DNA of 42,194 nt from Bacillota bacterium (lineage in GTDB: Bacteria; Bacillota; Clostridia; Saccharofermentanales; DTU023): assembly GCA_029570375.1 (NCBI GenBank), contig JAKPXB010000050.1:1-42194 (forward strand), written 5' to 3'. The notes beneath the pieces were generated by a model. It made no database searches. It worked only from the letters and a program-made list of their open reading frames with translations, and was not told where the DNA came from. Positions 28,834 to 32,041 of this stretch are shown here, one piece after another. Made by a program: the position numbers and the translations under genes. Position 1 is the stretch's first letter. Each line of letters begins with the position of its first letter.

Positions 28834-29394
28834 CTATGGTTCGGTTTTCTCTTCTTCGCCCGCGGAGAAGCGCTTCGCCGTACCGACCGCGCCTGACAGG
28901 GGGTTGGCGTGTTCATCGAGAACGCCTTTGGGGAGATTGGCCCGCCGGACGAGGTACTGGTTGACTTCTTTCATCAATTCTTCGGAGAGCGTATGCATCA
29001 CGCGGTGGAATATCTCCACTTCTTCTTCCGTAAAACGCCGCTGAATCCGTTTTACCAGTATCGAAGCGTAGCGCTGGCTTGTGCCGTAGAATGCCAGGAA
29101 TTTCTCTGTGACCTGCAGGAAGACAACGCGCCCGTCTTCTTCGGAGCGGAGTTTGCGCACAAATCCCTTTTTCTCAAGATTCGCAATTTTATAAGCGGCA
29201 TTCGGCTGCGATACGTTGATAAATTCCGCGAACTCGGACAAAGTCGGGGAACCGAGTCCGTAGATGGCTTCGGCGCAGAATGTCTCAAGAGCGGTCAGCG
29301 AATCATCGGCGGCTGTGTCCATCTTCCGAAAAATACGCCGGTAATAATACAGTTTGAGTTTCAGATAAATTGAATGGATGTCATCTTGCAGCAT
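28834..29394 (-). CDS. MarR-family transcriptional regulator
   Basis: The 186-residue protein has the MarR winged-helix core. Dimerisation helices (LKLYYYRRIFRKMD) are followed by LSEFAEFINVSQPNAAYKIA as the helix-turn-helix and LEKKGFVRKLRSEEDGRVVFLQ as the wing with its usual Asp-Gly-Arg, then C-terminal helices and an unusual charged tail. ATG 29394 is preceded by AGAGGG ten bases upstream; the frame stays open to 29574 but that part resembles no domain. It is convergent with the peptide ABC operon and divergent from the ECF sigma gene, so either could be its target. Ligand unknown. Confidence 0.8.
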   Translation of the reverse strand: MLQDDIHSIYLKLKLYYYRRIFRKMDTAADDSLTALETFCAEAIYGLGSPTLSEFAEFINVSQPNAAYKIANLEKKGFVRKLRSEEDGRVVFLQVTEKFLAFYGTSQRYASILVKRIQRRFTEEEVEIFHRVMHTLSEELMKEVNQYLVRRANLPKGVLDEHANPLSGAVGTAKRFSAGEEEKTEP

Positions 29395-29623
29395 GATGCT
29401 AAGTCCCTCTGTATTCCTTATCGAATATCTTAGCAGAAAAGTGGCGATAGAGCGCCGGATTCGTTCGATCATGGCGTAACCTGTCGGCCGTTTTGTCGTC
29501 TCAGAGTGTGAAAGGTAAGGAACCGCTCCGGCGTGATACAATTTTTCCAGGGAAGAGGCGTAAAGGATCGGCATTGCCCCCCACAGCCTCTTTCACCCCG
29601 GAGAAGGGAGATCACAGCCGGAC

Positions 29624-30202
29624 ATGAGCTCAGGCCACAGGACGGACGAATCCATCATCGAACTCTTCTTTGAACGCTCCGAAGATGCGATTCAATGGAC
29701 CATGGATAAATACGGCGCGCTGTTGCGGAAGCTCGCCTGGAATATCCTCGAAGACGCCGAAGACGTTGAAGAATGCCTGAGCGATACTTATCTGGCCATA
29801 TGGAATGCCATTCCTCCGGAGCGCCCGTTGTATCTCAAGGCTTACCTTTGCAGGATTGCGCGGAACTTTGCCCTGGACAGGGTGAAGGAGAAGATGAGGA
29901 GCAAGCGCGGAGGGGGACAGGCGCACCTTCTTCTGGACGAGCTGAGTGAAACGCTCGCGTCCGGCGCCAATACGGTGAGAGACCTTGAGACGGCCGAGAT
30001 TGGCGGCGTGATCAGCGGGTATCTGCGCTGCCAGCCGGATCAGCGGCGCGTGATCTTTGTCCAGCGGTATTTCTACGCCTCCGGGCTGCGCGAGATAGCG
30101 GAAGAGCACAATATGACAGAAGGGGCTGTAAAGGCGCTTTTGCACCGGATGCGGATCGAACTGAAAGGTGTATTTGAGAGGGAAGGGTACGGCGATGAAT
30201 GA
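29624..30202 (+). CDS. ECF-type RNA polymerase sigma factor
   Basis: The 192-residue protein has sigma region 2 (ALLRKLAWNILEDAEDVEEC, then LSDTYLAIWNAIPPE and LKAYLCRIARNFALDRV) that opens the -10 element. Sigma region 4 (FVQRYFYASGLREIAEEHNM, then TEGAVKALLHRMRIELK) reads the -35. The linker KRGGGQAHLLLDELSE is typical of the Firmicutes ECF30-like group. In that group the sigma gene is followed by a membrane anti-sigma gene. Here the stop overlaps the next start by eight bases, so the two are coupled. Start ATG 29624 has GGGAG about 13 bases away, a little far, so the start is provisional. A TACAAT lies at 29537-29542 upstream without a good -35. Confidence 0.92.
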   Translation: MSSGHRTDESIIELFFERSEDAIQWTMDKYGALLRKLAWNILEDAEDVEECLSDTYLAIWNAIPPERPLYLKAYLCRIARNFALDRVKEKMRSKRGGGQAHLLLDELSETLASGANTVRDLETAEIGGVISGYLRCQPDQRRVIFVQRYFYASGLREIAEEHNMTEGAVKALLHRMRIELKGVFEREGYGDE

Positions 30203-31757
30203 CAGGCAGGAACATCTGGACCGGCTGATGCGCGGCATCTCGGAGGTGGACGACGATCTTCTGGTTGATGTCATGCCTGCGGGCGTCCGCGGCGCTGAAC
30301 CGTCCCCCCGGAAAGATAAAGGCATAGCAATCCGCCGCGCGGGAGCGGGCGCCGGGCGGAAGACGGGGAGAAGGAAGAACTGGGTCCCGATCGCCGTCGC
30401 GGCCGCCTGCGTTGTGCTCGCTGTGGGATTTATGCTGGTCTGGAACACCGCCCGGGAGAAGGTGGACCGCGGAAGCTCAGAGGATATGCGAAACTGCATG
30501 AATAGCGGCGCGAACGAAGACTTCCAAGACCATATCCTTTCGCCTGAAAACCAGCCGACGTATTTTGAACCATGCGAGGAGAAATCCTTCTTAAATCATA
30601 TCCTGACCCAGGCGAAAGCTGAAAAAGCGGTTTGGAACAGGAAAATGGATGATAAAAGCCCGGCATCCGACGGGAACGTGGAAAAGATCGCGCGTCAAAT
30701 CACCAGCCTGGCAGATCGGTCAGCCCTCGATATCCTGGCATCATCGGAAGGAAATGCGGTTTACTCACCGGTCAGTCTCTACCAGGTGATGGCGTTCCTG
30801 GGGAACAGTCTGGAGGACAGTCAGCGCGCCTCCTATGAAAAAATAATCGGCGGATTTCCCGACCATCTGTACGGCGGGCGTTTGGCGTGGTTTGGGCTGT
30901 CGGAACAGGAGACAGCCGGCAGGTATGACCCCGGCAATGCCCTGATTTTAGGGAAAGATTTGTGGAACAGAAGTGATCAGAACCGTTTGGCGTCAGTCGG
31001 GGGTGCGTTCATGACTGATCTTTATCCGAGTCAGGCGGACGCGAAAAACAGTCAGGAGACACATGGCCGGGACGGGGGAAAAGCGGATATATCATTCGGC
31101 AGTTTCAGATGGCTGTGGGATCCTGCGGAAGAGCTGCTGTTCGTCACGCCATTCTGCCTGCATACCGGATGGTCACGCGATCTGATCAAAGTGAGCAAAA
31201 GCGAGGGGGTTTTTCATGCCGCCGACGGCACGCCCCGCGATGTGATGTACCGCGATGCCGACGACGCTTCTCTGCGCCACTATGCGCTTCCGGGAGCTGT
31301 CGCCTGCGAACTCCCGCTCCTGTCAGGGAGACTGTATCTCATCCTGCCGGACGAAGGGCTGACCCCGGAGGATCTGCTGCGACAGGATCATTTTTTCACA
31401 GCGTTACTCTCAGCGGAACCTGCCGGAGAACACGCGGTCGCGCGTTTCCCGGTGCTGAAATTCAGCAGCGTTCACAATCTCGTCGGCGCGCAGGGATTCT
31501 CCGAACTTCGGTCATTTGTCGGCAAGCCGCTGCGGTTTACCTGGCTGAAGGGTAGTGAAATCTCGGTGCCGCTGATCATTCAGCAGATTGATTTCATGCT
31601 GGACGGCGATGTGCGGGGGACGGATGATCAGGGCCCGGACGCTGTCGGGCGGATGACGCTGGAGGCGGTGTTCGACCGCCCGTTCATCTTCTGTCTCACC
31701 GATTCTGAGAACAGCGTGCCCTTGCTCGCCGGCGTGTACAGAGCTCCCTGCCGGTGA
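30195..31757 (+). CDS. Membrane protein with anti-sigma-like N-terminus and extracellular serpin domain
   Basis: The 520-residue protein has three parts. Residues 1-60 are cytoplasmic and include GISEVDDDLLVDVMP, like the IDDxLIxEA segment of anti-sigma partners of ECF30-type factors. Residues 64-83 form one membrane helix. After a linker, residues 160-517 follow the serpin fold: NAVYSPVSLYQVMAFLGNS, ELLFVTPFCLHTGWSRDL, FHAADGTPRDVMYRD, ELPLLSGRLYLILPDEG and the C-terminal FDRPFIFCLTDSENSVPLLAGVYRAP. The reactive-centre loop region (about 471-488) is short, and the Ala-rich hinge of inhibitory serpins is replaced by GDVRGTDDQGPDAVG, so protease inhibition is doubtful. ATG 30195, with GAGGGAAGGG upstream, overlaps the sigma gene. 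A sensing role controlling the sigma factor is inferred. Confidence 0.8.
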   Translation: MNDRQEHLDRLMRGISEVDDDLLVDVMPAGVRGAEPSPRKDKGIAIRRAGAGAGRKTGRRKNWVPIAVAAACVVLAVGFMLVWNTAREKVDRGSSEDMRNCMNSGANEDFQDHILSPENQPTYFEPCEEKSFLNHILTQAKAEKAVWNRKMDDKSPASDGNVEKIARQITSLADRSALDILASSEGNAVYSPVSLYQVMAFLGNSLEDSQRASYEKIIGGFPDHLYGGRLAWFGLSEQETAGRYDPGNALILGKDLWNRSDQNRLASVGGAFMTDLYPSQADAKNSQETHGRDGGKADISFGSFRWLWDPAEELLFVTPFCLHTGWSRDLIKVSKSEGVFHAADGTPRDVMYRDADDASLRHYALPGAVACELPLLSGRLYLILPDEGLTPEDLLRQDHFFTALLSAEPAGEHAVARFPVLKFSSVHNLVGAQGFSELRSFVGKPLRFTWLKGSEISVPLIIQQIDFMLDGDVRGTDDQGPDAVGRMTLEAVFDRPFIFCLTDSENSVPLLAGVYRAPCR

Positions 31758-31802: not shown

Positions 31803-31821
31803 GAATCCATAAGTTAATACA

Positions 31822-31975
31822 ACTGCCGGGAGAAGGGAAACAGGTGCGAAACCTGTGCGGTACCGCCGCTGTAAGCGAGTGTTCTTTCTTGATGTTGATC
31901 AGCCACTGAGAAATCGGGAAGGCGGAAAGAACGGAAACACAATTCGCCTCGTGAGCCAGAAGACCTGCCTGCAGT
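31822..31975 (+). ncRNA. Cobalamin (B12) riboswitch aptamer
   Basis: All hallmarks of the adenosylcobalamin-class aptamer are present in order: GGGAAACAGGTGCGAAACCTGTGCGG, the ACCGCCGCTGTAAGCGAG core, GCCACTG...GGGAAGGCGG, and the B12 box GTGAGCCAGAAGACCTGCC. The closing P1 helix pairs ACTGC (31822-31826) with GCAGT (31971-31975). The RNA should bind a cobalamin and alter folding of the terminator at 32042-32083. Confidence 0.95.
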
Positions 31976-32041
31976 GAAGAAGTAACAGCGCAACGGTATA
32001 TTGTGCGTTACATATTGTCAATACGCATGCAGTGAATACGG

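Follow-up and report, generated by a model that had tools for sequence, protein, structure and literature searches.

What serpins, the protein fold of the blood-clotting inhibitors, do in bacteria is a standing question. It is raised again by a contig from an uncultured Bacillota bacterium of the class Clostridia (JAKPXB010000050.1, assembly GCA_029570375.1; this whole stretch of 42,194 nucleotides is called the window), in which a gene for an extracytoplasmic function (ECF) sigma factor overlaps a gene for an anti-sigma-like membrane protein whose ectodomain is a serpin, at positions 29624 to 31757. Does this serpin work as the sensor that controls the sigma factor and, if so, what does it sense? 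Our analysis makes it probable that the protein is a serpin-sensor anti-sigma, released by proteolysis, which would control its own operon and secreted serpins as a protease-defence output.

The two genes lie on the forward strand. The sigma gene (29624..30202) encodes 192 aa, with regions 2 and 4 only: Sigma70_r2 (6.2e-11) and r4_2 (1.3e-7) of Pfam and TIGR02937 (59.7 bits, against a cut-off of 42.9) all matched over their cut-offs. The original prediction had called this sigma ECF30-like, a label that was not established: the sole cut-off passed was that of the general ECF superfamily model, and the SigV model was absent among the best 25 models. The overlap between the two genes measures eight bases (30195..30202), from which we infer that their translation is coupled; in the relatives described below the overlap is mostly four bases, ATGA (51 pairs from the first sigma model). 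The second gene (30195..31757, ATG start at 30195) encodes 520 aa. Residues 1-60 (30195..30374) form a cytoplasmic segment, the putative sigma-binding part, which carries the motif ISEVDDDLLVDV ending at residue 26 (VDDDLLVDV being residues 18-26) and resembles class II anti-sigmas in length (PMC7406223). Next comes the single strong hydrophobic stretch of the protein, a membrane helix at about residues 62-83 (30378..30443; hydropathy maximum 2.71; helix 63-90 in the model), then a juxtamembrane linker of low confidence (residues 84-148, 30444..30638), with a low predicted local distance difference test score (pLDDT) over much of its length, and finally the serpin-fold domain (residues 149-520, 30639..31754). 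Sequence, hydropathy and model thus agree with the earlier claim of a sigma factor coupled to a single-helix anti-sigma-like protein, and the architecture is that of an adjacent overlapping gene with an N-terminal segment, one membrane helix and an external domain. Note that none of the anti-sigma models passed its cut-off on the 520-aa protein (DUF4179, E 0.32; NCBIfam antisigma, E 0.023).

Despite a weak sequence score, the ectodomain is plainly a serpin by its predicted fold. PF00079 matched the window protein with an E of 1.9e-5 and 24.5 bits, below the curated cut-off of 27, and a phmmer search with this protein against the PDB returned no serpin matches. The predicted model of the 520-aa protein (pLDDT 76 overall, core mostly >90), whose input alignment contained clear serpins and favoured a serpin fold, retrieved serpins in 50 of the 50 matches listed by Foldseek (best E 1.7e-19), and VIA superposed it on tengpin (2pee) with a Z of 31.8 over 356 residues (model range 138-518), as had been predicted from the sequence. 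By sequence, the window protein reached up to 27% identity with canonical serpins across the whole domain, with E down to 1e-17. The relatives coupled to a sigma gene are serpins as well: in alignment A4, 22/22 coupled serpins matched PF00079, and for the member from Ruminococcus flavefaciens (L062; PF00079 206 bits) the predicted fold is that of a serpin. Tengpin and miropin were among the nearest solved structures to the modelled sensor serpins.

Full-length orthologues with 40-42% identity, accompanied by the sigma gene, were present in 3 of the 13 congeners (G001, G002 and G005), and the public records of the orthologues are Clostridiaceae metagenome-assembled genomes (MAGs; L042-L044). 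As judged from these genomes, the sigma-serpin pair is not a product of chance. A genome-contig scan with the window protein as sole query gave no relative, whereas an alignment-based scan did find relatives. The wider alignment-based search, whose query was built from coupled serpins, yielded 136 serpin open reading frames (ORFs) in the fetched loci; in 64 of them, a share not to be read as a population frequency, the gene immediately 5' in the same orientation encodes an ECF sigma, usually with a short overlap (51 by the first sigma model and 13 by a broader model, the latter from group B, described below, or over-long serpin frames). As a control for chance adjacency, and not as a frequency estimate, we used 60 class-wide loci taken from the top PF00079 scores, a list that favours canonical secreted serpins. 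In this list, no focal serpin (0/60) had an upstream ECF sigma, so that the sigma adjacency is no chance effect of gene density. When 391 genomes of the class and 398 of the phylum were searched by profile, a few percent gave strong matches, several of them sigma-coupled; in the class, about 13 of the 391 genomes matched strongly and four were seen to be sigma-coupled. The adjacency noted in the original prediction is thus conserved in congeners and, across many Clostridia, far beyond the genus. The 64 coupled serpins were normally preceded by a cytoplasmic segment and a membrane helix; the uncoupled ones were mostly lipoproteins or otherwise secreted, with fewer other membrane forms. There were also membrane serpins with an anti-sigma-like N-terminus and no adjoining sigma gene (L024 1048-2628, L033 1126-2601 and L242 1498-2943), which are candidates for orphan anti-sigmas or for anti-sigmas whose sigma is encoded elsewhere.

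Is the serpin then part of an anti-sigma, or just a neighbour of the sigma factor? The membrane serpin could be a plain surface protease inhibitor, placed in a sigma operon by happenstance, whose N-terminus is only an anchor and whose sigma is controlled by another factor. Secreted lipoproteins make up many of the uncoupled serpins in the tree, and L024 and L033 have the N-terminus without the sigma, both of which would suit such an inhibitor. We consider this explanation quite unlikely, because the co-variation between N-terminus and sigma persists once the serpin is accounted for. In 44 group A and window-clade pairs, the sigma distances followed those of the cytoplasmic segment with a Mantel r of 0.84 (partial 0.72, serpin held fixed) and those of the serpin domain with an r of 0.65 (partial 0.26, segment held fixed); all these values are inflated by shared descent, and it is the contrast between them that is informative. 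A short N-terminal segment that binds the sigma, with the serpin attached as a module, would be expected to produce such co-variation.

In support of this, serpins sit on three separate sigma/anti-sigma platforms. Group A has sigmas of about 185 aa and N-termini like ExLxDAIGxIDDxLI, while group B, found in the Flavonifractor isolates An306, An10 and An112 and in a Tissierella MAG, has sigmas of about 160 aa and YKRANDALHPT-type N-termini; group C (L251, L253) has yet another N-terminal type. That each of the sigma types B and C is paired with its own kind of N-terminus is a second point against a simple anchor. A third is that the same motif is borne by non-serpin sensors beside the same sigma type: the congeners G003, G011 and G013 have, directly 3' of two secreted serpin genes, a like sigma and a like N-terminal motif joined to a sensor without any Pfam family over cut-off (L034 589-2245, L035 3772-5473 and L014 2658-3918). 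Furthermore, the window protein has no inhibitory loop, yet its gene stays with the sigma in four species. In the serpin tree, coupled and uncoupled forms were interspersed, with label changes on starred branches numbering at least 15 for group A and at least 4 for group B, which suggests that serpin domains were repeatedly joined to, or lost from, anti-sigma stems. These comparisons of sequences indicate that the serpin is a modular add-on to an anti-sigma stem.

What would the sigma factor control? An ECF-type promoter, GTAACC-N15-CGTCT, is located on the forward strand at 29476..29501 (-35 at 29476-29481, -10 at 29497-29501), with 122 bases left before the start codon of the sigma gene. It is the single match in the window, and it is also present before the sigma gene of the orthologues. 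The exact pattern occurs only 2 times in the 1.73-Mb genome (reversed-pattern control, 0), before the window operon and before two tandem secreted canonical inhibitory-type lipoprotein serpins (G000 contig 16, 9309-12193; L001, L298). Close variants precede secreted serpin operons in ten other genomes of the genus, including all the window-clade species. A looser form was found at 15/46 group A sigma genes and at 13/85 uncoupled serpins, compared to 1/346 control ORFs (Fisher 1.6e-14 and 3.7e-9, respectively, both inflated by relatedness). Eight Ruminococcus-type genomes have the variant GTTACC-N16-CGTCT at 1-3 sites each, and in 6/8 the sigma-serpin operon holds one of these sites. From the distribution of these sites we infer autoregulation widely, and control of the secreted serpins in the window's genus.

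Additional features were observed around these promoters. The exact motif also precedes three lipoprotein genes of G002 and G005 (L294 981-1661, L295 1404-2051 and L296 782-1846), which are possible further members of the regulon. A TGATACAATTT stretch at 29532-29541 (+), past the ECF-type promoter but ahead of the sigma gene and present in the orthologues too, is perhaps a housekeeping promoter for basal expression. A divergent MarR-family regulator gene (28834-29574, reverse strand) lies directly 5' of the operon; taken at its greatest length, its frame overlaps the promoter region.

The reactive loop sets the window clade apart from the other sensor serpins. The inhibitory hinge DEEG-C/V-x-A-A/S-A/S-x-T is kept in nearly all the other coupled serpins (47/48, 12/12 and 2/2), often with small residues around the predicted scissile bond. 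In the window protein this region (residues 470-488, 31602..31658) is rewritten and truncated in the alignments and has low pLDDT at 478-481. From Gly480 to the DRPF motif there are 13 residues in the window-clade proteins (4 species) versus about 25 elsewhere, and additional residues are inserted ahead of the hinge. With Gly480 as the hinge glycine, P14-P9 of the clade are Pro/Leu, Asp, Ala, Val, Gly/Asp and Arg; the window protein itself has Pro at P14 and Arg at P9, and shows neither the inhibitory hinge consensus nor a full-length loop. If Gly471 is taken as the hinge, the loop has a normal length and P14-P9 become Asp/Pro/Ser, Val, Arg/His, Gly/Glu/Gln, Thr/Pro and Asp, which by their residues look no better suited to sheet insertion than under Gly480. 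Since the loop is truncated and rewritten in this four-species clade, the window protein should not trap proteases and would act as a pseudo-serpin sensor. The idea that serpin cleavage drives the switch, put forward in the original prediction, is consequently not supported for the window protein; it may hold, and is an attractive reading, in those relatives whose hinge is intact. Within the window's genus, G009 has a sigma-coupled serpin with a canonical loop (L147 1501-3619), and similar matches occur in G001 (contig 100, L293), which also has a window-type pseudo-serpin, and in G011 (contig 81, L292).

A truncated loop, together with the weak Pfam score and a long branch, could also mean that the serpin domain of the window clade is a remnant in decay that does no sensing. 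We regard this as very improbable, since the frames are open and full-length in four species with about 40% identity, and conserved blocks persist both in the core and within the rewritten loop, where DAVxRMxLEAxFDRPF is kept within the clade.

It may also be asked whether the signal is proteolytic at all. Given that the serpins secreted as the output are of inhibitory type, proteolysis outside the cell is the most economical input to assume, and extracellular protease activity is the most likely input signal. The input could instead be non-proteolytic, such as stress on the envelope or a small ligand to which the pseudo-serpin binds, and the secreted serpins would then be part of a broader envelope response. 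Non-inhibitory carrier serpins do exist, such as those that carry hormones, and this possibility gains from the missing usable loop in the window clade and from the promoter before other lipoproteins in the congeners (L294-L296). It seems to us rather unlikely, because in all four window-clade species the clearest promoter partner is the secreted inhibitory-type serpin operon and because nearly all the other coupled serpins keep the inhibitory hinge.

We therefore favour a serpin-sensor anti-sigma that responds to proteases, and its operation can be pictured as follows. At rest, the sigma would be held by the cytoplasmic N-terminus, as the architecture and the co-variation suggest. A signal at the serpin domain would cause removal of the anti-sigma by two-step regulated intramembrane proteolysis; the genome itself encodes an M50 site-2 protease (RseP/RasP-type). 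From GTAACC-N15-CGTCT promoters, the freed sigma would transcribe the operon in which it lies as well as the tandem genes for secreted lipoprotein serpins of inhibitory type, and the output would be a burst of exported protease inhibitors. The reactive loop looks functional in the sensors of most relatives, and these sensors could themselves trap the protease. In the window clade, and since the loop is truncated, the pseudo-serpin probably senses by binding and not by trapping, the bound partner being a protease, either alone or in complex with a serpin, or else a cleaved loop or some other ligand. As for the first cut, 11/12 group B proteins carry A-x-A sites on the outer side of the membrane helix and close to it (against a mean of 4.2 and a maximum of 9 in shuffles), and RsiV is cut by signal peptidase at such an A-x-A-type position once lysozyme is bound (PMC5014341). 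A bolder version, which we put forward only tentatively and hold to be doubtful, is that the serpins of these Clostridia are suicide receptors: protease trapping and insertion of the loop into the central sheet would be the signal, exposing a juxtamembrane site and freeing the sigma, and in the window clade this receptor would have been replaced by a loop-less pseudo-serpin that reads the state of the secreted serpins, such as their cleaved loop or the protease-serpin complex.

Several points weigh against the serpin-sensor anti-sigma as a whole. Relatedness swells both the Mantel and the promoter statistics given above. The promoter pattern with one mismatch was no commoner than its control, so that a wider regulon is not readable. 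The window serpin forms a long branch (3.03), and its parentage among serpins is not fixed by the tree. Finally, the window protein has no A-x-A site, and for the window clade the A-x-A idea fails.

How does this system relate to those already described? It resembles SigV/RsiV of Bacillus subtilis and Clostridioides difficile (ECF30), which also pairs an ECF sigma with a single-pass anti-sigma, in an autoregulated operon with a defence output. The RsiV ectodomain is a direct receptor for the enzyme that it also inhibits, and RsiV is cut by signal peptidase and RasP (PMC5014341, PMC9044953). However, RsiV has DUF4163/DUF3298 and senses lysozyme, whereas the window system has a serpin ectodomain, a proposed proteolytic signal and a serpin output; a Pfam search of the window protein gave neither DUF4163 nor DUF3298 at E up to 1. 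Similarly, the SigI/RsgI systems of cellulolytic clostridia consist of membrane anti-sigmas with extracellular sensory modules tied to the regulated products, and are autoregulated (PMC6056542), but SigI does not belong to the ECF sigmas, and RsgI sensors bind polysaccharide. The window system would work like RsiV and RsgI and appears to belong to neither kind. Siropins, tengpin and miropin share the serpin fold with the window ectodomain but are stand-alone inhibitors; siropins, which come from one gut species of Clostridia, are inhibitors of elastase-like proteases (PMC8201313). A 2021 survey of the serpin superfamily described prokaryotes as lacking the serpin regulatory networks of higher eukaryotes, and reported no regulatory function for serpins in prokaryotes, although it noted membrane-anchored prokaryotic serpins (PMC8233489). 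Among open-licence papers we found none that joins serpins with ECF or anti-sigma factors and, as far as we could find, neither a serpin as the sensor domain of an anti-sigma nor a regulatory role for bacterial serpins has been described previously.

Elsewhere in the window, a cobalamin riboswitch (31810-31986, forward strand; Rfam RF00174, 75.8 bits) begins 53 bases past the end of the serpin gene, and a tRNA-Ala (GGC) lies at 2781-2856 on the reverse strand.

As regards the role of serpins in bacteria, they appear here as both the sensor and the output of an ECF regulon. Serpin sensors occur on at least three sigma platforms, including those of cultured Flavonifractor isolates, which makes their physiological role directly testable. 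The arrangement suggests a possible means by which gut and digester clostridia could detect host or competitor proteases, and it may also provide a modular protease biosensor.
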